Assembly: GCF_020283565.1 (NCBI RefSeq) | Contig: NC_060060.1 | Coordinates: 25,048,001 to 25,112,000 of the forward strand | Source: Trifolium pratense | Taxonomy: Eukaryota; Streptophyta; Magnoliopsida; Fabales; Fabaceae | Direction: 5' to 3' | DNA: 64,000 bases | In this document: positions 467-62,849 of the stretch, one piece after another | Numbering within the stretch: the stretch's first letter is position 1 | Layout: each line of letters begins with the position of its first letter | The notes under the pieces: generated by a model | The model's database searches: none | Told to the model about the DNA's origin: nothing | What the model saw: the letters and a program-made list of their open reading frames with translations, nothing else | Translations under genes and position numbers: made by a program

Positions 467-3400
467 AACAATAATATGACTAATTATTATAATAATATAA
501 GAATTCCTCCATGTGAACCTTGCTGCAAAATATAGGACTTAACATGACTCCACCTCCTTCCAATCATCGTTTCGTCGTACAAATGAAGGCTAGGACTTGA
601 AATTTAATAACCTGGATCTTCAAAGTAAAAAAAAGTAAGGGGTCACGGACACTTGTTAGGAACATTATCATTATTAACTTTTTATTATAAAAGTTGAATA
701 TATATATTTTTCAAAAAAAATATTATTAGATTGGTTTCTTTAATTTGTATCCATATATAGGACACTTATTAGTATTTTTAAAAGATTAAAAACCAGCCTC
801 ACTACTAAAAACATGAAGTTAGTACAATATTTTTATTTATATTATCTTAATTATCTTAAATAAATATACTCATGATAGTAGTATACTCCTATTTATTTAT
901 CTTATCTTAATATTAGGTGTAAACACATGCACTACCCGATGCATGCAATGAGCTAGTTGCATGGTTTTTTTATTTTTATTTATCTTATAAACTCAGCTGT
1001 ATGGTTAACAAAATAAAAACAAAATGACCCAGTTGCAATATTAACTATTTAAAAACATAAAGAAAATATTACCCATTATGTTTTTAATTTCCTTTTAAAA
1101 AACATAAAGAAAATATTACCCATTTTACCTTTAACAGGTTTTGAGAAATTTCATGTGTAACATAAGATTTTTTTTATATATTATCATTTCCTTTTCAATT
1201 AACAATAACATGCATGTTTTTTTTTTTTTTGAAGCATTAACATGCATGGTTATACATTATAACGAACTCTAACGCTTATTTATGTTTTTTTGCTTATAAT
1301 TAAGTTTAAGAAAATGGGATATATATCGATAATATAAAATATTTTTATATTTTTATTTAATGTCAATCTTATGTCTTTTGTCAAGTCATTCTACTACATT
1401 CCACTTTCATGAGATATTAAACATTCGTGTAAAAATATTTTACACTAAGATAACATGTCCATTAAACTCTATAAGTTTTTATTTTACCAATTTGTAATAA
1501 AAGTGTATTCTAAAATTATTATACATGTATTTTTATGACAGAAAATAATATTTACAAAAATTTAAAATGTGCTCATATCTAACAACAATTTAAAATGTAT
1601 TAATAATAACTTCAGGTCGATCTACATATACAATATGATGTTTCCATCAACGGAATTAAATTTAACAAATTTTAAATGGACTTATCCGAAAAATTTGCAA
1701 TTATCAAATAGGAGTCAAGATAGGTCCAAATGTCCAATTGTTTTGTATAAACCACCTTATCTAATGTGATGTATTTTAAATAAAGTAGTTGTATGACGCT
1801 ATCTTGCAATAATAATCGTTTTCAATTAATAAAATAAAATACATTACAATAAACAACACAATACCTATAAATTGTGGAAGCATAAAAAATCTATGAAAAT
1901 TGTTTTTTAGCAAATAATTATTCCATGAGGTTGGCACTAGCTAGAAAAGTCGGTTTCAAGAGATTCCAATACAAACATGTATTTTAAGTTTTGTGATCTG
2001 ACTCAGCTATATAACCGTATTTGTATGTGTTTGTACTGACATACTTTATTTTCTTCCACCAAAAAATTTCTTTATTTGATTCCTTATAATTACCCACTTT
2101 AGGAAATGAAAATGAGACTTTCCATTTGGTTCGTTCCTCGTCCACATTCAACAAAACCTCACTTTTTTTGCTTAATAAAGAACCATATTCAAAACTATGA
2201 CTACGATCATACTATTTTGGTTATATTATTGTCACAAACTCTATATGGCCCATCTACCTTTATTCCTTTTTGTTTTCATTTACAACTTACCTTTACATTA
2301 TGCATGCATGACATTTCAATGAAACAACCATGACCCACAGTCCCACACACACATATTCTTAAGTCACCACCACGTTTTTATTTTATACCTGATTTTTTTA
2401 GAAAAAAAATGTATTTGGCAATTAGTTCAAGCCACATTGATGATAATTCGGTTCATAAACATTTGGTATTATCTTTTTTTTTTTTTTTTTTGGTGAATCG
2501 TGATTTGGCAACTAGTTCAAGCCAAATTGGAACAATTTTTAGTGGTTAATCTGCTTTTCAAATCATTTTTTTGGGTACATGAAATCATATATTTAAAAAA
2601 AATTAATTTAAAAAGTATTTTATATATACACAGTACTGCCTAGAGTCTATGGGCGGATATACAGCCCCGCCAGTCTGGATACTTATCCTGTCCAAAGTCT
2701 AGTAAAAATTTTTGGTATTTTAGAAGTTAGTTTAGGACAAGAATATAATTTTTTTTGTTCAAAACTGCGATTTTTCGGTGTAAAAATGAGACTTTTGCTT
2801 AAAATTGAGATTTTATCCGGACTTTATAAATTTTCTGACTTCATCACCGCTAGAGTCGCACCATATAAATCATTTTATATTTAACTCTTTTTTACTATAA
2901 CATTTCAAACTCACAATTTGTTAAAAAAGGCGTGTGGTTTATTAATTATTTAACGTCTCTTGCAATTAAACTAATTTCAATTATTCTCATTAAAGTTTTG
3001 TCAAAAAAAAAATTATTCTCGTTAAAGAAGCGAATAAAAGGTTGAAGCACTATGTTCACAAGAAAAAAAATATGTTGAAGCACTACCAAGTAGAATCTCA
3101 GGTTGATTAATTGGGCCTTGATAAAAAAAAATATACTCTTGTACCAAAAAAAAAATACTCTTCAAATATTTTCGATAATAATATTACAATTAGAACCACT
3201 TACTAACAATTGATTTAAATTGCTTCAAAAAAGAAAAAACAATTGATTTAAATGGTAAGGTTTTAATCCTCTCATAGATGTTAGATTCATATAGTTGTTC
3301 CTGTGTATAAAAAACTAGTCATTTCACTCATTATTAGTTACTTCAATGATGACTGCCGTTGAATTTTGTAAGATGAATTATGGTTCGATCTCCCACAACT

Positions 3401-8324: not shown

Positions 8325-8332
8325 ATCAATAT

Positions 8333-8585
8333 TAGAGCTGTAAAAAGGGCCTTAAGGGGCCAGCCCTTTAAGGGGCGGACCTACTTATTCCTGATTATTA
8401 ATTTTATTTAAATTTTAAATAATTTTTCTAGTGTCGTGAACTTATTCTCGTTTTCTTCAATCAGCACTGTCCACGATCGGCACCCTAAAAAAACTGTGTT
8501 TAAAATTTAAATAAAATTAATAATCAGGAATAAGTGGGTCCGCCCCTTAAAGGGCCGGCCCCTTAAGGCCCTTTTTACAGCTCTA
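8333..8585. mobile_element. hAT-like MITE, 253 bp, long inverted repeats
   Basis: Starts TAGAGCTGTAAAAAGGGCC and ends with its inverse, with imperfect inverted repeats of about 90 bp on each side. They include GC-rich 'aaggggcggacc' segments and a shared 'cctgattattaattttatt' arm. The flanking 8-bp direct repeat ATCAATAT is perfect (8325-8332 and 8586-8593). An 8-bp target duplication with a TAG-starting terminus fits the hAT superfamily. There is no coding capacity. Confidence 0.88.
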
Positions 8586-8593
8586 ATCAATAT

Positions 8594-12346: not shown

Positions 12347-12355
12347 TTGTTCGTC
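12347..12355. repeat. MULE target site duplication, left
   Basis: TTGTTCGTC, identical to 24868-24876. Nine bases is the diagnostic duplication length of the Mutator superfamily. Confidence 0.93.
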
Positions 12356-12425
12356 GAAGTTTTCTCTCCCGACCCCCCTCATTTCTTTTATACCCCCTGA
12401 ATTTCCGTTTTTACCCTTGGGGGGT
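12356..12425 (+). repeat. MULE terminal inverted repeat, left
   Basis: Inverse of 24798-24867. The first about 44 bases match with one or two differences, including 'catttcttttataccccc'; beyond that the two arms diverge but keep the 'gcggttta'/'gcggtata' block. Confidence 0.9.
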
Positions 12426-12439
12426 ACTGCGGTTTATAA

Positions 12440-12600
12440 AAACCGATGTCTTTTGACATCTTGAAACATTTCGGTAACTGCGAACCGAACGTGGTGTTGA
12501 CATCGTTCGGTATCCACGAACCGAATGTAGGGTTGCTTCGGTGGATATTAACCGAAGGAATGGTTGATTCGGTTGATATTAACCGAAGTTATCTTACATA
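12440..12600. repeat. Palindrome cluster 1 (TTCGGT-N-ACCGAA), before PMD gene 1
   Basis: About five short imperfect palindromes of 20-22 bases lie here, for example TTCGGTATCCACGAACCGAA and TTCGGTTGATATTAACCGAA. They sit just inside the left TIR and upstream of the first PMD gene. Function is unknown; transposase-binding or promoter-related sites are possible. Confidence 0.8.
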
Positions 12601-12699
12601 TGAACAATTTCAGTAAGTTCGTTTTATTTTGAAAAACAAACCACAAAACTCCTCTCTTCCTTTCTTCTACACATTTGCGGCCAACTTCAACATCCAACT

Positions 12700-15252
12700 T
12701 CAAATCACATTTCATCAAGTAAGTTTCTTTCCTTTATTTGTCATTCTATGCATTCCTCATCACCATGACATTTCAAATTCATTTTTTGTTCTTCCGTATA
12801 AAAATTCCAAAATTTCAATATCTGATTATTGAGTTAAATTGTTGATTATGTTGTTTGAATCGTTGATTATTGGTTAGTTGTTAGATTGGTTACATACTAG
12901 CATGAATGAATGTTGCTAATTGAGTTAAATGTGAATATGAAGCTAATTGAGTTATAGTGTACTCTAAGTGTTTGTCAAAATGTACGAGTGAATATGAATG
13001 CATGTTTCCATTTGAATTATGTTTCCATTGTTGCAAGAATCATGTGTTCGATTGAATTATAAGTATTGTATTGACTGTGAATTTATTTATCTATGTATAG
13101 ATATGGAAGAAAATCTACCTAGGGGTAGGCATGGAAAGGCAATCAATGCACATGCTTCCGCTCGTAGAGAGCTTGCTGCAAATCATCCGTCCAAACGAGG
13201 TCGTCGCAAAGGACCAACTCCGGGGCAAGGTACACATGATGCCGAGGCGGGTGGGTCGCATACACGTGGACGGACACGTCTAGGACAATCATTGGTGGTG
13301 CAAGATGAATTTGATGCCGACCAATTTTTAAATGCGTGTTTTGATTATGATGATCTTGGATCACCACAAGTCTCACCACAAGTCTCACCGCAACACTCAC
13401 CGCAAGATGAACCGCAAGACCCACCGCAACAACCACCTCGACAACAACGGCGCAAACCAGTACGCCGAAAACCACCAAAGTGTTCACGTAATGATGATGA
13501 AGTAGGTTTTGGAGGAGGACCGACGGATTTGTCCTTGTTAACGGAGTACGATAAGCATATGGCTATTCCGATATGGTATGCAGACCCAAATGACAAAGAG
13601 GTAAACCAATTTAAAATACGACGATTATTTTATTAAAAATATTGTGATTACGTTAGCTCGATAATTTTTTGTGTTATTTGAATTTTTCAGATTTTAGCGG
13701 TAAATTTACGTTGCATCGCCAGCGGAAAAAAAGTTATTAATATACAAAAACCGTCCCGCCGCACGGACAGATGGTTTTGGGATGTGGTTGAAGCATCGGG
13801 TTTGGAGCCGCTTACCCGGACTAATTTTAGCGTGCTTGACTACGGGCTCCTCTGGGCATTTGTTGAAAGATGGCATACGGAGACGAGTTCATTCCACATT
13901 CCATTGGGTGAGCTGGCCATCACATTGGACGATGTCCAGTGTCTGTTGCATATTCCGATCGAGGGAAAGTTTCTGAACCATGACAAAATGTCAAGGGATG
14001 AAGCGGCTGACATGGTTAATTCATTTCTAGGAGTTGATCGGAATGTTGTTATGGGTCATTTTGCCAAAATGAACGGGCTCCATCTGAAGCATTCTGACGT
14101 GGAGGATATCTATAGTGTTAACCACGGATTAGCTGATAAAGCTGTTGCTGAAGGTAAGTCGGCGCATGAGATTAAGCTGTATAGGGACAGGTCCATACGG
14201 GCTTTCTTGCTATTTTTGGTCTGTTGTACCATATTTAGCAACAAAAGCAGTTACTACGTGGACGTAGTATACCTGCAGTATTTTCAGGATTTGTCGGCTG
14301 TCCGTGAATGGAATTGGGGTGCTGCTGCTCTGGTTCATTTGCAACATTATCTGGATGATGCGTGTTTGGTGACAGTGAATCAGATGGCTGGGTACATGTC
14401 TTTGCTTCAGGTAACATAAACGTGCGCTTACGAAAATTATTCAACATGTATGATATGTAATGTCCGTCAATATAATGAAACTTGTTTGTCATGCTTTCAG
14501 GGCTGGATAATTTCTCATTTTCCGGGACTTAGCGTGTGGGCGCAGGATCCTATCTATCTGAGGGCATGCCTCGAAATGCAAAGTTTGTTCCCGGAGCTGG
14601 ACATAGGGAACCAAGTAGCTATAGAAACAGTTTGGATAATATTCAGACGTACGACTGCGTATTCAGTCCATATGATGATCACCGACACGTCCGCCCTTTG
14701 ATAAATTCATGCTGGTTTTCTGGATGGTTGAGATGTGGTAATTTGAAAGCAAAGCATTTGCCTGAACGCGTGCTTAGACAATTTAAACATGTCCAAGGCA
14801 TTCCTAGAAAACCGGATTTGTCTGCGACTCCGGGGATGAGCCTATGTGAGATTGATCGTGTTTTTATGGAGGAGTTGGATTTGAGGATGATTGCTGAAGA
14901 GATGAGGGGTCAGGCTGTGGTTAGCGCATGGGACCATGAACCTGGATACATGACATGGTTTTACAAAGTGTCGCATCCAGTTATGCGACCCGTACAAGCT
15001 CCGGCGTCACCACCAAGGCCACCTAACTTAGAGGTGTTGATAGAGGCCGCGGAAGCAAGGAATGACCCTAACATGCTTCAGGTATGCCGTGGTGTTAGGG
15101 ATGAGGTGGAGAGGTCACTTCGCGAAGGTGAGGCGGTGGAAGGAACTCCTGTTCATGGTACTTTGCGGAGGATTTTGAATTTGCTTAACCCTGTTTTGAC
15201 GTGTCGGCGACTTAAGCGGGGTAGAGGGAGACGGTACAACACTCGAGAGTAG
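12700..15252 (+). CDS. Plant mobile domain (PMD) protein 1, probable frameshift
   Basis: A 5' UTR intron runs from a 'aag|taag' type donor (12718) to 'tatag' (13100), with the ATG at 13103. Coding exons are 13103-13600, 13691-14410 and 14501-15252, with gt/ag borders that line up with PMD gene 2. PMD (PF10536) hallmarks are present: GGPTDLSLL, ASGLEPLTRTNF, FHIPLGELAITLDDV and LPERVLRQFKHVQ. The N-terminal part is basic and then P/Q-rich. Exon 3 is odd: residues GWIISHFPGL are in one frame, while the conserved YRNSLD...YDDHR part is in another, so an indel lies near 14555-14575. A different acceptor at 14531-14532 could bypass it at the cost of about ten residues. PMD proteins of the MAIN/MAIL type act in nuclear gene silencing and are also carried by transposons. 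Confidence 0.75.
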
Positions 15253-15489
15253 GCTTAGCTAATATTGTAACTCAGTTGTTGTTTAATGTAATTTTATTAT
15301 TTGAATTTGTCGAATTTGGATGTAGTCTGATTCAAACAATTTGGTGTATTTGACTACGTTTAATTACCCGTTACCTTTTTTAAATTTCCGTTAACGTGAT
15401 GTGTCTAATACTCAGCTATGTTATGATAGTTTATGATGTTACATAAACGTGCAAGACCCAAAAAAAAAAAAAAGATAATTATGCAATTC

Positions 15490-15905
15490 ATTTCGGTATC
15501 CAGTTACCGATATCTGGGTATATTTCGGTATATGGTAACCGAATATACATTTCGGTAGATGTATGCCGAAACAACCTAATTCCAGTGAACCGAAGAAAAT
15601 TTCGGTATCCAGGTACCGATATATGGTAAACTTTCGGTACCTGATAACCGAATATACATTTCGGTAAATTTCTGCCGATTAGATCATATTCCAGTGAACG
15701 AAACAAAATTTCGGTATCCACGTACCGATATCTGGGTAAATTTCGGTACCTTGTAACCGAAATAACTTTCGGTATATTTATGCCGAATACGTCCTGTCCA
15801 GTGAACCAATGAAAATTCCGGGGACTAATTACCGAAATCTGGGTGAGATTCGGTACACAACTGCCGAAAACGCTATAGTTCGGTTCGCATGTACCGAAAT
15901 TAACT
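15490..15905. repeat. Palindrome cluster 2: 109-bp tandem array between PMD genes
   Basis: Units start at about 15491, 15600, 15709 and 15816 (period about 109 bp, nearly four units). Each unit holds three TTTCGGTA...ACCGA/GCCGA hairpins in fixed order, followed by 'ccagtgaacc'. The last unit is more diverged. The array lies between the stop of PMD gene 1 and the promoter region of PMD gene 2. Confidence 0.85.
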
Positions 15906-16029
15906 AATATATTAGGAAAAACTTTAAACGTTCACCATTTGCGCCAAAACGGTTTGCAACAGAGGCTAGGGCGATTTTGGAGGTTTCAATCGCAAATTTA
16001 AGGTTTCACCAGTAGAACGACAATTTCTC

Positions 16030-18613
16030 TCTTCTAAACATTCAATTTCTCCCTGATAATCACCAAGCTCATCTCTACAAGTAAGTTTTCAAACTCAACT
16101 CTCTCATTTTCTTGCTTTTTTTTTTATTTTTTTATTTTGATTTGTTAATGCTCGTGATTATTGTTTTGATTCCACTAAATTTGGGGTTGTATTTTAATTT
16201 AGGGTATATGATTGGACTTGTATAGGGTAATTTATTTTAGGGCATATGAATTGGATTTGTATTCTTGTTTATGTGCACCAAGTGTTTGACAAAATGCTTG
16301 TATGAGTATTGATTTATGTATAAAAATTGTTTGAATGAGTAACCGATGAATATTGATTTCGTAGATACTTATGGTGACTGTTTTCTTGTAGGAATCATGA
16401 CGGACGACAAAGTTGGCCGAACAAGACGTGGCGGTGCAAGCAAAGCACATAGCTCTGCACGTAGACAGGCTGCGGTCAATGTAGATAAAATTCCAAGTCG
16501 AGCTAAAGGGAAAGCAGTTTCAACCACGATGGATGAGCCTCGACCGGAGGATGCAGAATCGCAAGAGGAGAATGAAGACGTGGAAGAAAATATTTCTGAA
16601 GAAGGGGAAGAGGAAGGGGAGGAAGGGGAGGAAGGAGTGGATGAGGAAGCGGAGGAAGCGGATGAGGAAGCGGATGAAGAGGGGGATGATGATGGGGAAG
16701 AAGAAGTTGATGAGGAAGCGGAAGAGGAAATGGAGGAGGAAGAGGAGGCTGAACAACCACCACCAGAACCTAAAAAACCACGGAAAAAGGTTACGCGAGT
16801 AACACAAGGAAGGAACCCACCACGAGTAAAACCACCACCAGTTACATGTTATGATGGTGGTCCGTCTGACTTGTCTTTGTTGCCGGGATTTGGAAAACAT
16901 GTTGCTGTACCGTTGTGGAAAGGAGAGGTAAGTTACGATTCATATAACACTATTTATTTTCGATGTCGATTGTTATGAAGTGTAATGAAGTGTAATGTTT
17001 TGCAGCTCCAATCCCGGTATTTGAGGGTAATGAACAACGGGAAAAAAATCAACAATTTCAAGATATGTCCGAAAGAGTACTCGTGGTTTTGGAATGTCGT
17101 TAATGCGTCCGGACTCGAAACTCTGCGGCGGACAAATTACAATCACACCGATTGGGGTCTGTTGACGGCATTTGCAGAGCGATGGCATCCTGAGACCGGA
17201 ACTTTCCATCTTCCTATTGGTGAGATGACTATAACCTTGGACGACGTGTCCTCATTGCTTCATATTCCGATTACCGGAAAAATGCTCGACCACAACGGAA
17301 CGTCATGTACAAAGGAAGATGGTGAAGAGATGTGCGTAGAGTATCTGAACTTCCCTATTAGTAAGTGCAAGAAAGAGTTTCAAAAAATGAAAGGAGCACA
17401 TATAGGGTTTAAGGCGTTGAAGGATTTGTATCTCGATAATTTGAAGGATGCCTTGAAAGCTGAAAGGTTAAAGAAGCCTGCTGAAGATGTGGAATTCCTC
17501 AGGGAATGCACCATTAGATGCTATTTGCTCTACTTGATCGGTGCAACCATTTTCACCAACAAAAGTATGCAGTACGTGGACGTCATTTTTCTTACCTACT
17601 TGCGAGACCTCAGTTTAGTTAACACGTGGAATTGGGGTGCTTCTGGGCTGGCATATCTGTACAACTACTTGGATGCTGCAAGCCGCCCGAGATGTGGAAA
17701 TCATGGTGGTTATAACTGTCTATTTCAGGTATACATACAAACTCAAAATGCGTTTTGCCTTTTAACTGAATGTCGGTTGTTATAATTAAATATTTTGCTT
17801 ACCCATATCATGTGTTTTCAATAGGCCTGGATTATGGCGCATTTCAAAACTTTTGGTGGACGTTTTGTTGATGAGAGATACACCCACGACAATCCCTATG
17901 CGGCAAGATTTTTGCCTTTAAAAGGACCAAAATTTCCAGGGCAGCATAGGTCCGCATTGGATACAATGCGCATGGATGAAGTGGTGTTTTGCCCATATGA
18001 GGAGCACCGGCAAACCAGACCCTTTCAAGATATCAGTTGGTACACTGGTTGGATTATGTGTGGAAGTGCTATTATCAATCCACACTTGCCAGAACGTGTC
18101 CTCCGACAATTTGGACATGTCCAGTCTATCCCTAGGCACCCTGATGTATCTGCAAAGGCTGGTATGAATCGGTTTACGATTGCTGATGCATTTGCTTCCT
18201 ACCTGACTGCCAACTATGTGACAGAGGAGATGCGAGGACCAAAAGTTGTGCGTGCATTTGATACCGTACCCGGATACATTCCATGGTTATACCGTGTTTC
18301 TCATCCGAAGATATTGCCACCGGTTGAAGCGGATCCACCAACACATGCTAACCTTGAGGAGGACAACGTGAGTGGTGAATGCGACGTGTCTGAAGTGACT
18401 AAGAAGGTTCGAGCGGATTTGAGGAAAGCGCTCGATGGTCAACTCAATTTGGCCGATGCTTTGGTGGTTATTGAAAAAGCCTACACTGATTTGGAGCCTG
18501 TAGATGCATATTTGGTGCGACGGAAGAGGAAAAGAGACTCGGGTGAAGGAACAAAGAAGAGGAAGAAGAAGAAGAAGACAACAACGGAAGATGCCGGAAC
18601 AAGCAGCTTGTAG
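16030..18613 (+). CDS. Plant mobile domain (PMD) protein 2, intact, 680 aa
   Basis: A 5' UTR intron joins a donor near 16080 to an acceptor at 16391; ATG at 16397. Coding exons 16397-16927, 17006-17728 and 17825-18613 join in phase 0 and give 680 residues without a stop. After a basic start comes a long acidic stretch of mostly E and D (about residues 60-118), then GGPSDLSLLPGF, the PMD core with ASGLETLRRTNYNHTDWG, FHLPIGEMTITLDDV, NWGASGLAYLY and LPERVLRQFGHVQ, and a lysine/arginine-rich nuclear-signal tail. Intron positions equal those of PMD gene 1, so the two are tandem duplicates within the element. The acidic tract and basic tail suggest chromatin association; this is inference. Confidence 0.88.
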
Positions 18614-18884
18614 TTTTTTATTTTTTGTTTTCGCTATGTTTTATTTTTTTTTAAATCCTGCCGTGTACAATGGAACAACTTGTCCGTATAATTTCGTTTT
18701 GCTTGGGATGTATGAACATGGATTTATATTGAATGCGGTTTCTATTTAATTTGTTTTTTTATTGGATTTGGATTGGAATGTATGAATTTCATTTGAAATA
18801 CGATTATATCCGAACAGGTGATTTCGCGTGGATATGATCCCACGGGTGATACATAGTTTAAAGTCATTTGTTGGGAAAAGATAT

Positions 18885-19105
18885 ATTTCGGTAAAACTTT
18901 GCCGAAACATACTAAAACAGTGAGCCAGAGAAAAATTCGGGAGGATATTACCGAAATCTGGGTAATATTCGGGTTTCAGTTACCGAAATTACTAGTTCGG
19001 TAAAGTTTTGCCGAAATTACCTATTTCCAGTGACCGAGTCAAAATTCCGGTACCTAAATACCGAAATCTGGGAAAACTTTGGTATGCTTTTACCGAAATA
19101 GTATT
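18885..19105. repeat. Palindrome cluster 3, between PMD gene 2 and the small - strand genes
   Basis: About six TTCGGTA...TTGCCGAA or TACCGAA palindromes, with the same 'ccagtgacc' and 'accgaaatctggg' linkers as the 109-bp array. It lies in the convergent gap between the + and - gene groups of the element. Confidence 0.8.
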
Positions 19106-19220
19106 AATTATAACTTCAAGAAAATGAAACACACTTAGGCAAACTAAAAATCACAACAAAGATGAAAAGGAAAACACACTTAGGCAAATTAAAAAACAAA
19201 ACGATAACAACACGGTCGCA

Positions 19221-19613
19221 TCACTTAGTTTGCCTATTTGGGTCTTCTGGCCCAACAAGACAAGCAAGGATGGCTTCAACTGATCTTGTCAGTGTCGCAT
19301 CTAGCTCGATAGGTCCCGTGGAGGAGTACTGCTCGAAGATTGAAAACATAGTTTCAACATCATCGTTGTTTTCAACAGCCATACGAGTGAAAGCAACGCG
19401 TCCGTCAGAACCAATTGATGGCTTTCGATACAGGAGATTTGATACCGTTCTATTGTCGTTCGGGTTGTTGACGGTGCGATTCAGTTGGTACAGCTGCTGT
19501 TTCAGACCTTCTAACGTTTCACCGTCATTGATTCGAAACAAATGCGGTTTTCCATCGCCGAAGTAAACTGCCGCAAGAGTAGATCTCATTCGTTGTGTGA
19601 GTGAGACATCCAT
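19221..19613 (-). CDS. Small beta-grasp/PB1-like protein A, 130 aa (hypothetical)
   Basis: I chose the start at 19613 (MDVSLTQRMRS), because the upstream in-frame ATG at 19688 would add a poorly conserved leader. The protein shows a short strand region, ETLEGLKQQLYQL, then VSNLLYRKP, then VENNDDVETMF and IELDATLTRS. The pattern of a strand, 'LK.Q' helix and 'NDDDV..MF' matches protein B of this element. It recalls the small PB1-like N-terminal module seen in many plant MuDR-type transposases. No catalytic residues are visible. A role as a separate helper or adaptor for the transposase is speculation. Confidence 0.55.
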   Translation of the reverse strand: MDVSLTQRMRSTLAAVYFGDGKPHLFRINDGETLEGLKQQLYQLNRTVNNPNDNRTVSNLLYRKPSIGSDGRVAFTRMAVENNDDVETMFSIFEQYSSTGPIELDATLTRSVEAILACLVGPEDPNRQTK

Positions 19614-19932
19614 TTTCCCGTTATTTTTTTTCTGTCGAGTGTTGAATTCAACAAAACACGTGAATTTAAAGATGGGTTTGGTGCACATTATGGCGGTAGG
19701 TGAGCGTTAATGAGGTGGATTGGTAGTTAGCGGAGTTAGGTGGGCTTAAATGCGGTAGGTGGGTGTTGATTCGTTTGGCGAGCGTTTAGAAAATTTAGAT
19801 GGAGCATAAAAAACGTGCAACATAAAAGCATTCATTAATTAAAAGGTCAACATAACTGAAAAATCAGCGATAACGTAAACGAAAATGCAACGACAACATA
19901 ACTGAGAATTCAACAACATGAGTAACCAAATT

Positions 19933-20304
19933 TCAGTTTGTAACTACTAAGGTAGCATACAAACGTGGATACTTCGGATCAACTTCTACCCCATTGAACA
20001 TGTCGTTCACATCGTCATCATTTTTCAACTCCTTCCACTCGTATTTTCGCGGTTGCTCATCATATCCACCGACATTATCACTGGCCAGGTCGATTGTCGA
20101 TTCGTAATACGCAATTTTTTCTATTTTGATTTGTCTGCCGTATTTGAAGCGATACATGACTTCGATCTGGCGTTTAAGAGCTTGAATAGTCGTCAAATTG
20201 TTCGACAGGTCAACGCAGAACAACTCGTCGTTACCGCGAAACTTAACTGAAAATGCATGAGATGTCGCCCTATTGTTATTAACAGACCGATTTGAAGCAC
20301 TCAT
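19933..20304 (-). CDS. Small beta-grasp/PB1-like protein B, 123 aa (hypothetical)
   Basis: The start at 20304 (MSASNRS) is preferred: a TATA-like 'gtataaaa' at about 20355-20362 lies only some 10-15 bp before the upstream ATG at 20346, which would then be at or before the transcription start. The protein has FSVKFRGNDELFCVDL, IQALKRQIEV, IEKIAYYEST, LKNDDDVNDMF and YPRLYATLVV, so strand, LK.Q helix and NDDDV..MF recur as in protein A. The two are diverged paralogues on the same strand about 320 bp apart. Function unknown. Confidence 0.55.
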   Translation of the reverse strand: MSASNRSVNNNRATSHAFSVKFRGNDELFCVDLSNNLTTIQALKRQIEVMYRFKYGRQIKIEKIAYYESTIDLASDNVGGYDEQPRKYEWKELKNDDDVNDMFNGVEVDPKYPRLYATLVVTN

Positions 20305-20392
20305 TTTGCGAAATTGTTCAAACGTGTTTTTCACAACTATACACATACGGCGGTTTTATACTACATTCAATCTAATTACGGCCACATAATTT

Positions 20393-20515
20393 CGTCGGTG
20401 TAATTTTAACCACAACTAAATGTCGGTGTAATCTTGACCACAAAAAAAAAAAAAAATAAAAATAAAAATTGTCGATCCAATCTCGACCACAAAAAGTGTC
20501 GGTGTAATCTCAAAT
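20393..20515. repeat. Short direct repeats upstream of small gene B
   Basis: Four copies of a 'gtcggtgtaatctNgaccac' type unit, one diverged, lie in the presumed promoter region of the small - strand gene. They could be regulatory, but nothing else supports this. Confidence 0.6.
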
Positions 20516-20591
20516 ATAAATTATTTGACGGGTTCGTATCGATTAAGTTATTTATATGATTTTTAACAAGTTTTCAGGCATATGCTTACAT

Positions 20592-20632
20592 CTTTTCTAC
20601 CCCCCAGTTTTCTTTTATACCCCCAGTAAACA
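20592..20632 (+). repeat. Internal TIR-like sequence
   Basis: The block 'taccccccagttttcttt' followed by 'tatacccccag' closely resembles the left TIR segment 'gacccccctcatttcttt' / 'tatacccccTG', in the same orientation. It faces the right TIR at 24867, so 20592-24867 would form a 4.3-kb element with only the transposase-OTU gene inside. Confidence 0.6.
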
Positions 20633-20649
20633 GTTGTAAATTTAAACAC

Positions 20650-20940
20650 ATTTCGGTTCGCATTCCCCGAAGTTTATGAGTTCGGTTAATATTCACCGAA
20701 GTTTACTGTCATACCCCCTTATTTCGGTACCAATCTACCGAAAATTTCAGTGGGTCACTGGAATTTGTACGGTTCGGCAGATGTTTACCGACATTTTAGT
20801 TCGGTAACTATTTGCCGGAAGAACAACATACTTCGGTACCAATCTACCGAAAATTTCGTTTGTTCACTGTAAATAGGCGGGTTCGGCAGATATTTACCGA
20901 AATCTGGGTATATTCCGGTACCTAGTTACCGAAATATATT
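20650..20940. repeat. Palindrome cluster 4, between small gene B and the transposase 3' end
   Basis: About seven TTCGGT/ACCGAA palindromes. Linkers 'ggtcactggaa' are the reverse complement of the 'ttccagtgacc' linkers of clusters 2 and 3, so this cluster is inverted relative to them. Confidence 0.8.
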
Positions 20941-21247
20941 TTCATGAAAACCAATGATATTGTAACTCACGACCTTCCATGGAATGACATCCACGCGAAA
21001 TCCATTGTTAATGCTGTTCATCCAGACACATTCATATTGGAAAAATTATTCATACAATTACACAACATCAAAATTACTTCAACCAATATCATTATATTGA
21101 CACAAACAATTACACAACACCAAATCACTTCAATATATTTCATTACAAAATGGATGTCATTACATCTCGATTCATATCATTACAAAATGGATGTTCTTTA
21201 CATCAAAATATATAACAACGTAAAATACATTAAAATAGGCCAAATGA

Positions 21248-24200
21248 TCAGTCAATCACCAATGGAGTTTCTCTACTGCCTGCACCAACTATTTGGATGG
21301 GGACAACGTTCTCGGTGCTCATCATCACCTCGAACCTATGTTGCGCAGCTATGAATGAATCTTCCCAACCCAAACTTTGTTTAGCACAATATTGCTTCCA
21401 CGACTTGTTTGATTTGGGTATCGGACACCCAACTTTAAGCTTTACCAAAACATAGTGATCCGGTAACGCGCCAAGGCAAATAACCCTTGAAGACGGGTTT
21501 GGTGACGGAATGGAATGCAATGGGAAAAAAGTTTCACAAGGGCCGTTTTGAAGTATGGAGAGCTGAACAACTACTCTATCCAATATGGTGGCCACGATAT
21601 GTCCCATATCCGGCAACGTGAACCATTTATCCATCGGTGCAACACTATTCCTAATACTAGTACGTTGTCTCGTCCTCGGGGGTGGGAGTAGTGCATCACA
21701 GATATATTGGTAACGCTCCTCGCAACCAAATATAGCAACATACATATCCTTATTCAATCGCAACTCCCTGCTCATGTTGCACCGTATCAGTTCAAAATCA
21801 TCTTCGTTGCCTCTCTGAGCCAATGCAACGGCACGGTAACCACAATAGCCGTCGCCGTCCACGTTGATGATATCTTCAATGAAGGGATGCATGAATTTTG
21901 GCATGTGGTTAATTCCAAAAATTTGAGATGATGAGGTTAGTGGCAATGGGTTGGACACAGTGAGCGGAGCTTCAGACACCGTAGGCATAGGGTTTGATGC
22001 GGTAGGTTGTGATGATGATGGCCTTGAGTGGGATGGAATTGACGGAGACGGCTTTGACGATTGCGACGCTTGTGTCTCCGTGAAATATTCTTCAACATGC
22101 TCCCATCGAGACTTATCTCTGCTGGTGGATCTTGTTCCACGGACCACCTTTTTCTTTTTAGCCCCTTTTGATTTTACATTTGTGTTCGGAGGCTCCACAT
22201 CGGTGGTTGTAGGATACGCAATCTTGCGGAGTTGATCTCGGATCTCATTTTTCATGCTTACATCAGCTGTCCTCAATCGTTCCTAAAACAAACAAAAAAA
22301 AATATGCCATTAAAAATTAAAAACCAACGCATAATGATCGTAAAATCGTAAAATAAGTGTATTATGCCTTTAATAAACACGCACCTGAATTGCTTGCCAC
22401 TCTGCCGTGCACGCATAATTGTCCTCGACGTCACCACCAACTTCTTCATCTTGGAAACAAATTATCTTCCAATGTTTGTAAACCTCATCGAGTCTAATAG
22501 GCCTATTGTGGTGCAGTTTCTTGGCAATCAAACACGCACATGGCAGCCCGTAGTTAGTCCTCATCAGACAACCACACTTCATGCTATCCATACCAGTAAA
22601 CTCGACTCTTTTTGATTCAGTGTGGATGTATCTCATTGCACGTCTAGAGATTTTAAACATCAAAGTCGAGTAAAGTGTTTTCTTCCGGTATGTGTGTCCA
22701 TACACAGACATGTTCTGGCCAAATTCAGTTTGCACTTGGGTGAATTGATTGCCTAACATTCTGTGGATCGATTCCCAACCCTTCACCAAATCACCGAGAC
22801 CGTCGGTCAAGTAACTTTTCAAAACACCGTGTGCGCTTTCGGCTCTATTTGTCGTATGGTTGCCCATGTGCATATGCTTGTCCACCCATGCACTCACGAG
22901 CTTCTCTTTGTCGGTGTCCAAAATTGTCTCTTCAACGTATCGAACAAATTTTGGCCACCTCTCACATAACTTCCTAAAAGCCATAACATTTTCAGTATAC
23001 TCGGCCTCAGTAGACGAATCTAACACATCCTCGAACGCCAAACAGACTCTTTCCCTCATGTCCGCCGCCTTGACCTTTTCCCCATCCCTCACCTTGACCA
23101 GCTCGACTGCCTTGGTCCTCACATTCTTCTTAACATGGAACCGACAAACCAACGCCGCCGCTTCTGGAAACACAGCCGGAATAGCATTCATCAAAGCTAA
23201 ATCTCGATCCGTCAAGATAACCTTCGGCAAATTTGTCTCACGCCTTAACAAACAACGTAGTTGTTGCAGAGCCCATATAAAGTTGTCTTCCTTTTCGTTA
23301 CTGAGCCAGGCAAAAGCAACGTTGAATGTCTTCTCGGTCGAAGTGAATCCGACTATCTCAAACAGCGGCATTTTGTACTTGCTGGTTTTGTATGTGGAGT
23401 CCATCATCAGCACAGTATGAAAAGAGTTGAATAAAGTTATGGACCTCGGATGTGCAAAGAATATATCTTGAAGATGTTCTACTCCATTTTCAACAACCGT
23501 CCGATACTTGTAGTAGTACTTGTTATCATCAAGCTTCTTGCATAAGTGTTGCATCTCAGTCATGGACGCCCTCATTTTAACTCTGTACCTATGACGAGCG
23601 TTGTACACTTGCTTTGCAGAGGTCTTGTTTTCCGGATCTCTCTCCTTTAATGTGGACAATATGTTTTTTGGAGCCACCGCATTCCTTGTCATCTCGTCCA
23701 TAAAATCCTTCTCTTGTGGTTTCAAACGCCCCGCCACGAGATGCCCTTCAAGCCCTTTGTCCAACTCGTGGTTATGCATACCGTTGACAACAGTCAAACG
23801 CCATAGTTTTGTTGCCTTGTTGTAATACCCACGGAGTCGGAAAGGACATTCGCATTTTCTTGTTCCGGAGGTATCGGATTTCAACTTCTTCTTGGCTGGA
23901 ACATACTTCCCACTACGTTCACACTCTAACACCAATTGAGCCTTTCTCTTCTCGCCCGAATCGGATCGCCTAACTATAATTGCGAACCTTAAACTTTGCG
24001 ACACGCTTCGAGCCCATTTGATCAACTCATCTCTGTCGTTCTCTTCCCTATCAGTCGCAAAATGAGACGATGTGTCAATTTCTATCGGCTGCGGCACATT
24101 AGGAGGACTTCTTGGTTGACCAGCTGGAACAATGCCCGTTGCAAAAAGGCCAAGCACAACAGGTCGCCTAACTTCGACAACTTCGTTAATTTCGCCTTCC

Positions 24201-24566
24201 GTAACTACAGCATACGCAAATGAAAAAACAATCAATCAACCACACATAATATTTACAATCCTATTACAACACTAATTAAACACATAGGACACTATGAAGT
24301 CAATATGAAGCCAAAATAAAGCCAAGTCAATATGAAGTACAGTTTATAAGTCAATATAAAGTCAAGTCAAGCCAAGCCTAAGCCTAACGCAGAGGATCAA
24401 CATTTCGGTTCGTATAAACCGAAGGTCACATAACCTGACTTCGGTTTATATTCCCCGAAGGATTACTCTCAGAAACCTTGCGAGAACAGAGTCTATGATA
24501 GCAAGAAAAAACGAATTTAAATCGGTGGTTACCTGAGTTTTGTGCTTTGGTGCGTGTTGAATCCAT
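21248..24566 (-). CDS. MULE transposase fused by splicing to an OTU cysteine protease, 962 aa
   Basis: Exons on -: 24566-24533, 24204-22385 and 22282-21248, all with gt/ag borders and in frame. Start MDSTRTKAQNS was chosen as the only exon that supplies the missing phase-1 base; a TATA box 'tatatataaata' lies at about 24676-24690. Order of domains: FAR1-type zinc-binding region (about 65-165, with CECPFRLRGY and MHNHEL), MULE transposase (about 275-385, with MMDSTYKTS, LTDRDLALM and CRFHVKKNV), SWIM-like finger CGC...GLPCACLIA (about 555-575, last ligand Cys instead of His), a basic and then S/P-rich linker, and a C-terminal OTU domain with DGDGYCGYRAVAL (catalytic D and C) and LPDHYVLVKL (catalytic H). 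It should bind the TIRs, cut and join DNA in the nucleus; the OTU part may remove ubiquitin. Confidence 0.88.
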
Positions 24567-24765
24567 TAGATGATGCTTCAATCTCGATTTCAAGCCTCAA
24601 ATGCGTCAAAAGTTGATCTTCTTTCCGTAAGCTTTTCAAATTCTCGTTTTGTGAATAATAAGAACTGACAGCAGAGTATTTATATATAGAAACACTTCGG
24701 TTAACATTAACCGAAGTAATTCAGCGAGTGGTTTATATAAACCGAAGTCCATGGCCTGCGGTTCG
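24405..24765. repeat. Palindrome cluster 5, around the transposase promoter
   Basis: Five palindromes such as TTCGGTTCGTATAAACCGAA and CTTCGGTTAACATTAACCGA. One lies directly upstream of the transposase TATA box (about 24693-24716), the others within its first intron or toward the right TIR. Confidence 0.8.
24675..24690 (-). promoter_or_regulatory. TATA box of the transposase gene
   Basis: On the - strand 'tctatatataaatact' about 110 bp upstream of the chosen ATG (24566). Confidence 0.6.
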
Positions 24766-24797
24766 TAAAAACCGAAGTCTCTCGACAAAATTTTTTT

Positions 24798-24867
24798 ATA
24801 CCGCAAAGGGCAAAATGGGATTTTCGGGGGTATAAAAGAAATGGGGGGGGTCGGGAGAGAAAACTTC
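24798..24867 (-). repeat. MULE terminal inverted repeat, right
   Basis: Inverse of 12356-12425; ends 66 nt (after the 9-bp duplication) before the kinase start codon. Confidence 0.9.
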
Positions 24868-24876
24868 TTGTTCGTC
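24868..24876. repeat. MULE target site duplication, right
   Basis: TTGTTCGTC, identical to 12347-12355. Confidence 0.93.
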
Positions 24877-24942: not shown

Positions 24943-27900
24943 ATGGACCGGAGCTCTTTCTCTCCGCGAAATCGGAATACCCGACCCAAGTCCGATATCT
25001 ACTCTACTTTCGTAATTCACGACGATGACGACGCCGAAACTAACCGTCGCCGGAGAGCCGGTAGCGCTGAAGTTCAGGAAGATCCATACGCAACAATGGT
25101 CTTCAAAGACAACGGCAACGATGACGATGATGAAGATTCCTTTCTCCCTCCGCTTCTCAAGCGTCTCCCCAAGGATTTCGGTGGCGGAGCGTCAATGGAC
25201 TACGACGATGACGATGATGATGAATCTGGTGATTTTGGCACGATGATCGTGAAAAGCGATCGGAACCGGCAGCGAGATCGGTCTTCTTCTGGTTTGACCT
25301 CACCGGTAGGCTCCACCTGGAAGACTGGGAGTTCTTATAAGGCGAATCCTTTGAATGGCGAGGATGATGATGAGGATGACGATGGTGGTGGATTTTCAAC
25401 TTTTGTTATGCGTTCTACGGTGAAGGCTGGCGAGAGAGAGTCTGTAAGCGGAACTATGGTGCGAAGGACAGGCGGTAATGATGGTGGTTCGACGATGGAG
25501 AGGGCGATTGCAAGTATGCAAGGTGTGGGAGAATTTGGTTTAGGGAAGCATAGGAAAGGAAGTGGATCATCACAGAACGATGAGGGAAAGCATCATTCGG
25601 TAACTAAGGTTTCGACGAGTTCAATCCCTGATAGTGTTATCAGAGAGGATCCTACCATCAAGTATGAATTACTCAATGAACTTGGTAGGTGCTAAACAAA
25701 GTCAATTCTAGCTTGTTGCTTATGTATTCACTAATTCTTGTTTTGTTTTGTATGAATTTCTAATTGTTTTTGCATTTGGATTTGTTGCAGGGAAGGGTTC
25801 TTATGGTGCTGTTTACAAAGCCAGGGATTATAAAACCTCTGAGATGGTTGCTATCAAAGTCATATCATTATCTGAAGGAGTGAGTTTCTGTTTCATTTTG
25901 TATCTAGATATTTGCATTCTGGTTATTTTGTTTATTGAATTCGTGTTTGAACTGCTTTGAATGAACTATTATGGTTTTTGTGCTCATTAGGAGGAGGGAT
26001 ATGAGGAAATTCGTGGTGAGATTGAGATGTTACAACAGTGTAATCATCCTAACGTTGTCCGTTATCTTGGAAGCTATCAAGGAGAAGAGTATCTTTGGGT
26101 AAGAATTAAGAAGGCTTTTCCTAAACATGAACTCATTGTTTGTATGGCACTGCTTTTCCGAAACTCTTTCTAGATTTAGTGGTTTTTTTGTTTTTGATTT
26201 GTGATAGGCTTTTCCTTATGCTTATGGTGATTCACTAATGATTTTATTAGAAGGATGTATTCTTATTTGGATTTTGTTATTTGTTGTTTCTTACTCTAGG
26301 ACTTATTTTCTTCATTCGTTTTATCCTAGGCTCCCTCCTTTGTATAAATAGTACAAATGATGTGGTTGATTTTGCTTGTTAAAATATTGTTTCTGAATTC
26401 TGAATCTCTGATTAAGATTTTGGCAGATAGTGATGGAATACTGTGGTGGTGGTAGTGTTGCTGATCTTATGAACGTGACTGATGAAGCATTGGATGAGGG
26501 TCAAATAGCATATATCTGTAGAGAAGCACTGAAGGTATAGTTGATTGCATGGATTGGCACTGGATGTTTTTCCTGTTGTTGTCCTACTTGTTGATTTATC
26601 CTTTCATCTCTACCAAGGTTTTCAATTTATTTGTTCTTCACTGTTGCAAACAAATTACTTTAAACAGAATTATTTGGACCATGATTTTTGCTGCAAATAA
26701 AAATAATATTGTTTTTGTTTATTTTTCTAATATCTTCCTTGATTATGAATAGGGACTTGATTATTTACACTCAATTTTTAAAGTCCACAGAGACATTAAA
26801 GGCGGGAATATCTTATTAACTGAACAAGGAGATGTCAAGCTAGGTGAGTACTGTCAGTAGTTGTGTTAGTGTAGCCTTTGCCAAGTGCTCTTAATAATGT
26901 GTTAGTGTAGCCTTTGCCAAGTGCTCTTAATAATTATACTTATTGATGTCTTGATGGTTATTTTAGTTTCCTTTATTTAACATGGAAATCACGATTAGTC
27001 GTATACATTACGTTGGCTATCTTGTTTTTTTCCTTCTTTCAAATAAAACGTTGAATTCACTATTTTGTGTTGTAACTTTTTCTTGAATTTTTTTTTAGCG
27101 AGTAGGTAATATTTCTTAGCTTATAGCTCTAGTCTTCATTTTAAAATGTTGTGTACCATCTAGAGGCTATTCTTCTAAGAAAGAGTGATTGCTTGTAAAA
27201 AGTTCCCATTCTAAATTCTAAATTATTACTGCAACTGCCAATATGGTCAAGTGGCAATTAACTGGTCCCCTTATAATCATAGTGAAGAATGAAGCTAATA
27301 TTCATCACATGGTTACTTACTCTTGAATTTGTCATGGTGTCAACAATTTCAGCTGTCATTTTCTTTTAAGTCTACAGTTGTTTGTTGTGTCTTCTAATAT
27401 TTGTATGCCATGCACACATCATATTAGGCATTAGGAAGAAGAACGTGACATTTTAGATTTTATCTAGTTAACCAATAATGCTCTCTTCCACTCCTATGTT
27501 TTGTCGAATGTTCTCTGAAACTAAGATTGATGGCATTCAGTTTTTTATATTTTAACATCACTTCCTAGATAAATTTATAGACATCTAAATTCTAATCCTG
27601 GCGTCTTTTAAAACTAAAAAATTAAAACAAATTCTATTATTTGATAGTCAACGGTAGTATGTTTTTGAAATGCTCTAAATATTTATTTTTATTCTTTATT
27701 TTCAAGTTTATTTTTGCAAAAATAGTACGTGTAAGCTCGAGGGTATTTTTCAATGACATTTCTATTCATCTGTTTGATGCATTTCAATTTAGTTGTCATA
27801 TGCATTTTATGTGCTGGACTTCATTATGTATATCAACTTATCAAGGATAAAATTTAATTTGCTTACTTCTTAGATAAAGCAGCAAGATATTGTAATAAAG

Positions 27901-37278: not shown

Positions 37279-38878
37279 ATTATACCTTGCTGCCTCTTTT
37301 TTATATCCAAAGATAACATAACCATTTTCCTTTGCACGGCTTTATTATATGATGATACTTACATATCAGTGGCAGTGAAGTAATAGTTTTTGTTTTTGCT
37401 TCTTAGGTGTTTGATTGTGACTAGTTAGTTTGCTGGTTTGATTACTCGGTTTCAGTCTAACGTCATGTAATACATGTGTTTAGTCAGCTGTCACATATTT
37501 ATATGTAAATATTTTGTACCTAGGTCTTGTATCAAATGTCAGTATTTCCATATGTTGTAGTCTGTAATGGAATTTTTGGAGTAATGCTACAAATTTGTCA
37601 GCATCCATTTTAATACCACAAGATGGAGGAAATGCTTGCAAGTCTAATTCGATATTAATGTAAAGATGAATATTTCATTTTACAATTTTTACTCATGGTC
37701 ATTTTTAAAAGATAACGAATCTGTAGAAAAGTGCAATCTTAAAAAATAAAGAAATAATTGTAAGCAAACATTTTACAATTAATGAAAATTTGGAAATTCT
37801 AAGACGGTTGAGTGTCGAAATCACTCTCCAAGATCCCTCCTGGCAGCCTCTGTTGAATGCTTTTTCAGTCTTCAGGGGAGTGCATCTCTCTCTCTCTCCA
37901 TCTCCAAAACTATATGAAAGTATCGTTGTTAACACCATTGCCTTGAACATTTGCCAATGGTGCTTCTGATGAATGCAATCTCGTACTGTATGCGATACCA
38001 CCTCAGAAGGATATTTTCCCCGGACCCTTTTATTGGATTTGTGACAATACCCCATCCTGCTATAATTTAATGCAGGCGAGGTTTGGAAGTTTCAACCCTT
38101 CTTCTCTGTTTCTAGGTTTGAGGGATGCTGACAGAATCTCTAATACAATGAGTCAATTGTTTTTAATGGTGTAGTTTGAGTTTTATAGTTTATGTTTGTT
38201 GATAAGAAGCTTTCATTTCTTAGAATATGTAATGCCTCAAAGGTGATTGACGAGATTTGTGGTTTTAGAAATTTCAAAACTGAAATTTATCGCCTTTCTT
38301 AACTAATTCTCTAAATTTGGGGAGAAACTAACTTGTTAGTACATACATAGCAACCCTAATGCATATAGTAGTTTCTAAAACTCTGTAATAAGGTTGAAGT
38401 CCTATGGGAATTCACCTTTGTTTCCTTCAACTTCAACCTCTAAACCCTTAAGTTTTGATATTTTGAAAATAGACATTTCAACATCTTATAAGTTAATATC
38501 TATTTTTGTTTATTAGTAAAAAAAATATGATCAAAGCAATATGTGTGAATAGTGCACAAGTCAACTGTGTCCAAGGACAATTGTTGGCATTTGTTTTATT
38601 TTGTTAGGGTTAAATATATTTTTGATCCCTACAGTTTTTCATAATCTCCTTTTTAATCCTGAAGATTTTTTTTGTACTTTTTATTCCTGAAGTTTTTTCT
38701 TTCGGTATTTTTAATCCATACTAAAAACAAAATTATGGGAAACTATAAACACTTGAAGCATTTTTTAGGGCGAAAATGAAATAGTGGCTACTAAAGTCAA
38801 AGAAAAGAAACAATATATATTTTTTTTTTGGAAAGAGAAGAAACAATATTTTACTTAATGAATAAGATTTGCGTGGGC
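37279..38878. other. Kinase 3' UTR and intergenic DNA
   Basis: The first few hundred bases are probably the kinase 3' UTR and terminator region. A 116-codon frame on - (37705-38055) has no recognised motif, no intron signals and AT-poor codons only in part, so it is not called. The rest is AT-rich and featureless. Confidence 0.5.
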
Positions 38879-38930
38879 TTGTGGTTAAAGTACTTGGAGC
38901 CCAAGCAAACGAGTCTATAAATATTCCCCA
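38879..38930 (+). promoter_or_regulatory. Core promoter of DUF2828 gene 1
   Basis: TATAAATA at 38916-38923, 129 bp before the ATG. The block 'tgtggttaaagtacttggag' just upstream is conserved in the second DUF2828 copy, where TATAAATA is at 62893. Confidence 0.75.
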
Positions 38931-39044
38931 AATCAGTCAGTTGCAACAAACAAACAAACAAACAAACAACCTTCTACTACTTTTTCATTAACCTTACCAC
39001 ACACACACACTTTCAGTGCCATTCCTAAACTTCATTGCTCAACA

Positions 39045-44262: not shown

Positions 44263-44613
44263 CCAACGACAATAGTAGATCAAATAGATGAGAAGTAGAA
44301 ATTAAAATAAATTTAGAAAATTAGAGTATCTTTCACATCTCCTTTATCTACATATTACAAGCTTGTAAGATATAAAATTTCTCTCTTCTATCAAAGATGG
44401 ATAAAAGCAACAAAGCGAAAAGTATAAGAGATTAAGAGAGAGAAGAGATGCTCGAATCTAAAGAAAAAAAATTAATTTGCGTCATAGTGATTGTTCGGTC
44501 GTTTTGGTTATGAAGAGATGAATTTTTAAAGACCCGCACATGTCCGTACATAACTGATTTTTACAATTGTTGACCTAAGACCCGACCTACACCCGACCAA
44601 ATGCTTCCTTATA

Positions 44614-44916
44614 TTGGCAGTTATATTGGTTTCGAGTCGGGTTGTGGGTCCTTGCTCAGCCTTAGGTTCAGTAACATGTGAAAAACAAATTTTGTCCGGT
44701 TCTGGTCTGAGGTGCGTTCGCTACCTAGATAGCGAACAACAACTTGGTTTGCCACATAGCCGGCGAACGGTGAAGGTGTTCGCTAGAAAATTAGTAATTT
44801 TTGACGATCTGCATGCTCAAGCTGGGGATAAAGCTAATGATGATAAAGGAGACGGTGACAGGCCTAAGACCACAAAAGAGATAGCTGATGAGCTACCAGT
44901 TGTGAAGCAGTCCTAA
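44614..44916 (+). other. Conserved 100-codon frame in duplicated segment, copy A
   Basis: Open frame of 100 codons, identical to that at 57465-57767 except one residue (R or M near position 83). It has S/R-rich and then acidic/lysine-rich parts. I do not recognise it. Conservation follows from the recent DNA duplication and is not evidence of selection. It may be a captured exon. Confidence 0.25.
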
Positions 44917-45142
44917 GACCACAAACCAACAATCATACAGTTAAATACACCATGTATGATCTGTCACTTAAATTGTGATATGGTATTTAAATGCACAATG
45001 TATGATTTGTCACTTATATTATTTTATGAGGTGATCTGTCACTCTTTTTAGAATACGTCTCTTTTCAATGTGAGACGAGTTTTTCTCGAAAATAGTAACG
45101 TACACTTACTAAAAAGAATAAAAATAAATTAAGTTTCCTTAC

Positions 45143-45300
45143 CAAATGTTGCCGGTAATAACTGTTCGATTGATTCCGTCTCCAACCATAATGAGATATG
45201 CCTTGTTTTGCGGGATAGACACATATTCTTCATAAACACCTTCTTTGATAAAAATCAAGAAATATCCATTTGTTGCATTAATAGTGTTATTTGAAGCACT
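45143..45300 (-). pseudogene. Captured pectinesterase exon, copy A
   Basis: Reads ASNNTINATNGYFLIFIKEG, then VYEEYVSIPQNKAYLIMVGD and GINRTVITGN. This is the start of the catalytic beta-helix of plant pectin methylesterases. It has an acceptor 'ttttgtag' before it and a donor 'gtaagg' after it, so it came from genomic DNA. The catalytic Asp/Arg motifs, which lie further downstream in the family, are absent. Confidence 0.8.
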
Positions 45301-57316: not shown

Positions 57317-57464
57317 AAAAAATTAATTTGCGTCATAGTGATTGTTCGGTCGTTTTGGTTATGAAGAGATGAATTTTTAAAGACCCGCACATGTCCGTAC
57401 ATAACTGATTTTTACAATTGTTGACCTAAGACCCGACCTACACCCGACCAAATGCTTCCTTATA

Positions 57465-57767
57465 TTGGCAGTTATATTGGTTTCGAGTCGGGTTGTGGGT
57501 CCTTGCTCAGCCTTAGGTTCAGTAACATGTGAAAAACAAATTTTGTCCGGTTCTGGTCTGAGGTGCGTTCGCTACCTAGATAGCGAACAACAACTTGGTT
57601 TGCCACATAGCCGGCGAACGGTGAAGGTGTTCGCTAGAAAATTAGTAATTTTTGACGATCTGCATGCTCAAGCTGGGGATAAAGCTAATGATGATAAAGG
57701 AGACGGTGACATGCCTAAGACCACAAAAGAGATAGCTGATGAGCTACCAGTTGTGAAGCAGTCCTAA
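57465..57767 (+). other. Conserved 100-codon frame in duplicated segment, copy B
   Basis: Same frame as 44614-44916, with one residue changed. Not recognised; see that entry. Confidence 0.25.
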
Positions 57768-62806: not shown

Positions 62807-62849
62807 GCATTTGTATTAGTACTATTTTACTTAATGACTAAGATTCGAG

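Follow-up and report, generated by a model that had tools for sequence, protein, structure and literature searches.

The 64-kb window analysed here, positions 25048001-25112000 of C2 in the 413.6-Mb genome of Trifolium pratense, contains a 12,512-bp Mutator-like element (MULE) at window positions 12356-24867 that may well carry its own defence against host silencing. The element is bounded by 67-nt terminal inverted repeats (TIRs; left, 12356-12422, plus strand; right, 24801-24867, minus strand) that match at 57 of 67 positions, and by a 9-bp target duplication, TTGTTCGTC, with identical copies at 12347-12355 and 24868-24876. A duplication of 9 bp, within the 8-11 bp range of the class, a MULE transposase domain and TIRs identify it as a MULE; assignment to VANDAL proper was rejected because TIRs, which the VANDAL class lacks, are present. 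Matched TIRs and a perfect target duplication had been proposed in a first-pass annotation made from the sequence alone, and both were borne out.

Genes of the element

Two plus-strand genes encode plant mobile domains (PMD, PF10536): PMD1 (gene model, 13103-15252; exons 13103-13600, 13691-14410 and 14501-15252), whose exon 2 scores 101.6 bits (E 6.5e-29), and PMD2 (16397-18613; exons 16397-16927, 17006-17728 and 17825-18613), which scores 163.7 bits, against a Pfam cut-off of 34.9. PMD2 is intact at 680 aa, and a database protein (P0135) is identical to it over residues 120-640. The exon 2 products share 45% identity, and the pair arose when ~3.3 kb of DNA was duplicated in tandem (repeat offsets 3311-3318). 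In a tree of 46 of the 120 listed PMD proteins (132 were found), the 15 PMD1-like and 14 PMD2-like sequences separate into two clades, both supported at 1.0; because each clade contains T. pratense, T. repens and T. subterraneum, the duplication probably predates these three species. Synonymous sites were saturated when we attempted a ratio of nonsynonymous to synonymous rates between PMD1 and PMD2.

The transposase-OTU gene (minus strand, 21248-24566; exons 24566-24533, 24204-22385 and 22282-21248) encodes a protein of 962 aa, 99% identical to a database protein (P0015), with matches to the Pfam MULE (PF10551, E 3.4e-28) and AFT (E 9.3e-10) domains. Its putative OTU protease is assigned from DGDGxC and His motifs (VDGDGYCGYR, PDHYV) and from the database names of relatives, some of them OTU; this part had no Pfam match at E <= 1 and no PDB sequence match. 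At E <= 0.001 the transposase finds 195 relatives, and many of the 120 listed come from other legumes; a custom OTU hidden Markov model (nine seeds, two poorly aligned at the tail) matches 101 of these 120, and a strict motif 14. Legume proteins called "PKS-NRPS hybrid synthetase cheA-like", a database misnomer, have the same MULE-transposase and OTU make-up. In T. subterraneum the locus tags of a PMD gene (TSUD_319150) and of a transposase gene whose product has an OTU-type motif (TSUD_319160) are consecutive, and their contigs are of equal length; both T. subterraneum and T. repens give hints that transposase-OTU relatives lie in similar elements.

The remaining two genes are small minus-strand reading frames, S1 (19221-19613, 130 aa) and S2 (19933-20304, 123 aa), which the first-pass annotation had called a beta-grasp pair. 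S1 is predicted, at low confidence, to have a PB1-like fold, and a Pfam search of S1 gave no PB1 match; S2 is a possible paralogue of S1, their profiles matching weakly (E 0.016, probability 2.9%). S1 has 14 relatives, and all ten that carry a species name are from Trifolium; a T. repens gene model fuses transposase-like sequence to the S1 end.

A solo internal TIR remnant lies at 20599-20624 on the plus strand, oriented like the left TIR (88% over 26 bp, E 2.6e-4). All ten full copies described below contain it, which makes it an old part of the element, so a recent nested insertion was rejected as its origin; it may mark where a shorter and older transposase-OTU element once ended. Solo internal TIRs are already known in tomato MULEs.

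Copies in the genome

A genome search with the left end for copies of the same gene order, a check proposed in the first-pass annotation, identified at least 40 left ends with 93-100% identity to the left 115 bp, on C1-C7 and including that of the window, plus one short match. This count is a lower bound because 40 of 1,205 candidates were scored. From these left ends we read 21 copies, that of the window among them. The full set of five genes, in unchanged order, is present in ten (the window copy, L011, L013, L015, L017, L019, L023, L037, L045 and L047), with partial deletions in PMD2 exon 3 of L013 and in the transposase of L019. S1 and S2 are open in all ten full copies, PMD2 in eight and PMD1 in six, all six among the nine copies other than the window; in five (L011, L015, L017, L023 and L047) all five reading frames are open. 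The other 11 copies comprise nine derivatives of ~1.0 to 6.0 kb, L041 (~9.8 kb), which lacks most of the transposase-OTU, and L043, whose right end is outside the sequence read.

Perfect 9-bp target duplications, all different, flank 15 of the 21 copies. None was found at L015 (whose right end was placed by TIR match, not by exact string), L029 or L033; the case of L041 is ambiguous, and for L037 and L043 the right end falls beyond the sequence fetched. Copies and duplications together led us to reject chance or artefact, and there is good support for the earlier claim that the five genes belong to one mobile system. Searches of viral_contigs gave no match. Six derivatives of ~1.0 to 3.6 kb (L029, L031, L033, L035, L039 and L021; G000) keep both ends and 4 to 9 sites of the motif described next, and are likely non-autonomous copies moved in trans.

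A repeated inverted motif

The noncoding DNA of the element repeats an inverted motif, TTCGGT-N8-ACCGAA. The element contains CGGT-N8-ACCG 20 times, and the remaining 51.5 kb of the window 0 times; 500 dinucleotide shuffles gave a maximum of 2, and every other CGGT/ACCG spacing from 0 to 24 occurs at most once inside the element. An unbiased scan returned the same site, the commonest gapped 4-mer palindrome in the element being TCGG-N10-CCGA, with 28 occurrences inside and 0 outside. If up to 2 of the 12 positions may mismatch, the element holds 36 sites and the rest of the window 2, both of the latter being copies of one repeated sequence.

One of these sites falls within S1 coding DNA (19543), and 35 are noncoding, spread over the subterminal regions, three intergenic arrays and one intron. 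The left subterminal block (12428-12587) has five, array B1 (15490-15900) 12 in units of ~109 bp, array B2 (18880-19105), between the 3' ends of PMD2 and S1, six, and array B3 (20645-20940), inverted relative to B1 and B2, eight; two lie in transposase intron 1 (24404-24459) and two in the right subterminal block (24696-24776), where a third (24727) has 3 mismatches. The short gap between S1 and S2 has no motif site. Another conserved block, CAGTGA, is found repeatedly in the linkers of all three arrays.

Positions 1, 4, 5, 16, 17 and 18 are invariant at the 35 noncoding sites, and the CpG positions hold 1 of 27 mismatches (binomial 2.6e-4), figures to be read with the bias toward conserved positions that comes from choosing sites by similarity. 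In a methylated transposon CpGs are expected to decay fastest. When the ~109-bp units are aligned, the half-site columns of sites 2 and 3 have a mean identity of 0.95 and the other columns 0.71 (permutation P 5e-5), and coding DNA contains 0 exact half-sites vs 4.45 expected (codon shuffles, P 0.017).

Comparison between copies shows that the arrays as a whole evolve fast and that the half-sites are restrained inside them. For this comparison sites were defined on the window copy, the copies are not independent, and polymorphism was scored in 7 or 10 of the 21 copies, the remaining 11 being internally deleted or incomplete. Among seven close copies nucleotide diversity is 0.0038 in coding DNA, 0.0052 in half-sites, 0.0090 in other noncoding DNA, 0.0365 in linkers and 0.0468 in spacers, and 0 of 210 core CGG/CCG positions vary. 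Among ten copies 15/420 half-site positions vary (core 5/210), with 56/280 in spacers, 104/530 in linkers, 252/3615 in other noncoding DNA and 277/7667 in coding DNA; in gap-free surroundings the figures are 14/364 for half-sites, 53/256 for spacers and 87/430 for linkers. From the divergent copy L037 the window copy differs by 13-14% in spacers and linkers, 5.2% in other noncoding DNA, 3.0% in half-sites and 2.9% in coding DNA, and from L023 by 4.0% in spacers and 3.7% in linkers, both again above half-sites.

Whole sites are also gained and lost, one B1 site being absent from four copies. Variable codons among the seven copies, too few for a firm statement on any one gene, are nonsynonymous/synonymous 2/1 in PMD1 exons 1-2, 7/13 in PMD2, 2/1 in S1, 2/5 in S2, 10/10 in the transposase exon and 7/4 in the OTU exon.

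A possible self-targeted anti-silencing system

The predicted model of PMD2 matches the fold of the DNA-binding region of VANC21 (structure 9lnj, for which a literature search found no paper), and the element has what characterizes a VANC-type target, a specific short motif in fast-changing noncoding repeats. Published VANC targets likewise sit in fast-changing repeats. Given a VANC21-like fold predicted for the two PMD proteins and a nearly fixed site amid fast-changing DNA, the element probably lifts host silencing of itself. We put at roughly 60% the reading that this TIR-bearing clover MULE has been active recently and that its PMD proteins are the basis of a VANC-like anti-silencing system aimed at the element itself. 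The first-pass annotation had already suggested that the PMD module may counter silencing; the predicted fold match and the apparent constraint on the noncoding arrays strengthen that suggestion, and the roles proposed with it, of the OTU domain in protein turnover and of the small proteins as adaptors, are guesses.

We infer the following mechanism. PMD1 and PMD2 would be VANC-fold DNA-binding proteins that bind, as homo- or heterodimers, the ~35 copies of TTCGGT-N8-ACCGAA in the noncoding DNA, and this binding would remove or block silencing marks, methylation included, along the element. Once unsilenced, the element would express its transposase gene, and both full copies and deletion derivatives could move. 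The PB1-like small protein or proteins may be accessory, possibly in complex assembly, and the OTU protease likewise, possibly in the removal of ubiquitin marks. The host proteins MAIL1 and MAIN share one pathway, "perhaps as heterodimers" (PMC5418596).

Several results count against this interpretation. The Foldseek E-value between PMD and VANC21 narrowly misses 0.001, with a root-mean-square deviation of 4.5, and a PDB sequence search with PMD did not find VANC21. DUF1985 matches occur in 24 of 52 PMD relatives at E <= 1, the best (2.3e-6) being below the Pfam cut-off, with none in PMD2 and an E-value of 0.18 for PMD1 exon 2. In the window copy the PMD1 reading frame is broken by a frameshift in exon 3. 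The half-sites are constrained relative to their neighbours, not beyond coding DNA, and in the comparison with L023 they differ more (1.2%) than other noncoding (0.75%) and coding DNA (0.43%). Helical phasing of the sites, reportedly seen in work on VANDALs, is weak in the clover element (R 0.37 over 29 spacings), and strict phasing was set aside. Host PMD proteins, moreover, are described as promoting silencing, the opposite effect.

The main alternative, which we consider unlikely, is that the motif is bound by the element's own transposase, through its FAR1/AFT-type domain, for recognition of the ends, the internal arrays being relics of the ends of a former composite element. Subterminal repeats serve end recognition in CACTA elements, and the clover sites do cluster near both ends (five left, two right), with array B3 adjoining the solo TIR remnant, an AFT/FAR1-like domain in the transposase, and 4 to 12 CGGT-N8-ACCG sites retained by the deletion derivatives. 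However, the internal arrays hold 26 of the 35 noncoding sites, no TIR lies beside B1 or B2, and the VANC21-like predicted fold of PMD would be left unexplained. Less probable still is that the motif works in promoters or enhancers, read by a host transcription factor or by PMD as an ordinary activator, and serves self-expression with no effect on silencing: B2 lies between convergent 3' ends, two sites are intronic and ~35 sites per element are many for promoters, against which stand the position of arrays upstream of PMD1, PMD2, S2 and the transposase and the finding that genes with the "DOWN" promoter motif need host PMD proteins for expression (PMC7156037). MULEs do capture host genes, and capture of PMD-C by MULEs has been reported twice (PMC5418596, section 11), but that the PMD genes are captured passengers and the arrays functionless, ordinary repeat expansions is very improbable, with both PMD lineages present in three Trifolium species, the PMD and small genes open in six to ten of the ten full copies, and half-sites constrained within diverging arrays.

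Relation to known systems

Self-targeted anti-silencing by PMD would place the clover element alongside the Arabidopsis non-TIR MULEs VANDAL21 and VANDAL6 with their VANC21 and VANC6 (PMC5735166, PMC10398659). They too are MULEs with a transposase and further genes, and they share with the clover element the VANC21 fold (predicted in clover), short noncoding motif repeats and fast-diverging arrays. Clover differs in its TIRs, in PMD instead of a recognised DUF1985 VANC, in the OTU-fused transposase and the two small extra genes, and in the type of motif, inverted with an 8-bp spacer rather than YAGTATTAY or AGTTGTCC; anti-silencing is established for the VANDALs (PMC5735166, PMC10398659), whereas we infer it for clover. 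VANDALs with Ulp1 (KIU; cited in PMC13317346) also combine a MULE anti-silencing gene set with a ubiquitin-type protease domain, joined there to VANC and in clover to the transposase.

PMD is likewise found on grass and Amborella MULEs, for which anti-silencing has been suggested (PMC5418596, section 11); in those PMD is fused to the transposase, whereas the legume element has two separate PMD genes, a transposase-OTU and motif arrays. In MUSTANG-B genes (PMC3435246) a PB1 domain is again associated with a MULE transposase, but there PB1 forms a 5' exon of domesticated host genes, and S1, PB1-like by prediction, is a separate small gene in a mobile element. A literature search, with subscription papers largely outside its reach, found no TIR-MULE in which two stand-alone PMD genes accompany a constrained array of inverted motifs, and neither this gene set nor a link between PMD and VANC. 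TnpA of the transposon En/Spm is known to bind motif repeats and to relieve methylation; unlike clover PMD, it belongs to the CACTA superfamily, its motifs lie near the ends, and the protein is unrelated.

That transposon PMDs may counter silencing was suggested earlier, by Ikeda et al. and in a 2021 review; to this we add the fold link, a candidate target and the constraint on that target. PMD has been described as a domain of unknown function (PMC7156037), and host members are required for transposon silencing. The clover element offers PMD proteins from a recently mobile transposon together with a specific, constrained and repeated candidate target. Should PMD prove to bind this motif and to relieve silencing, anti-silencing among plant MULEs would extend beyond the VANDALs, PMD function would be solved in outline, and MAIN and MAIL1 would be candidates for DNA-binding proteins of a like design. 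The arrays also provide a natural test of the proposal (PMC10398659) that transposons change their noncoding DNA quickly to evade RNA-directed methylation, with the sites of the anti-silencer kept.

More tentatively, at somewhat less than even odds, PMD and VANC may form one superfamily of sequence-specific DNA-binding chromatin regulators, which transposons would use as self-targeted anti-silencers with a co-evolving repeated motif, and of which MAIN and MAIL1 would be domesticated host members that act, in dimeric form, on their own motif. In the clover arrays, linkers and spacers would then be driven to fast change, as expected if they are escaping small-RNA-guided methylation, with the PMD half-sites held.

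Other features of the window

The right target duplication ends 66 bp before the ATG (24943) of a plus-strand open reading frame that we take to be SIK1-like; the open reading frame after it has a weak Pfam protein-kinase match (21.2 bits, below the cut-off of 31.7). The element thus lies 66 bp upstream of a host kinase-type gene (24943-25957) and may affect the expression of this gene.

Farther from the element, an inverted repeat at 8331-8419 and 8499-8587 (89-nt arms, 98% complementary, 79 nt apart) resembles a hairpin or a miniature inverted-repeat transposable element. Direct repeats of 1,687 bp at 44466-46152 and 57317-59003 share 99.6% identity, lie 12.85 kb apart and enclose long minus-strand open reading frames that are presumably of the endonuclease/reverse transcriptase type of long interspersed nuclear elements; the pair is either an odd arrangement resembling long terminal repeats or a recent duplication. 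Two copies of ~1.2 kb at 38847-39982 and 62823-63999, 78% identical and 24 kb apart, each lie within a long plus-strand open reading frame and are possibly duplicated host genes.

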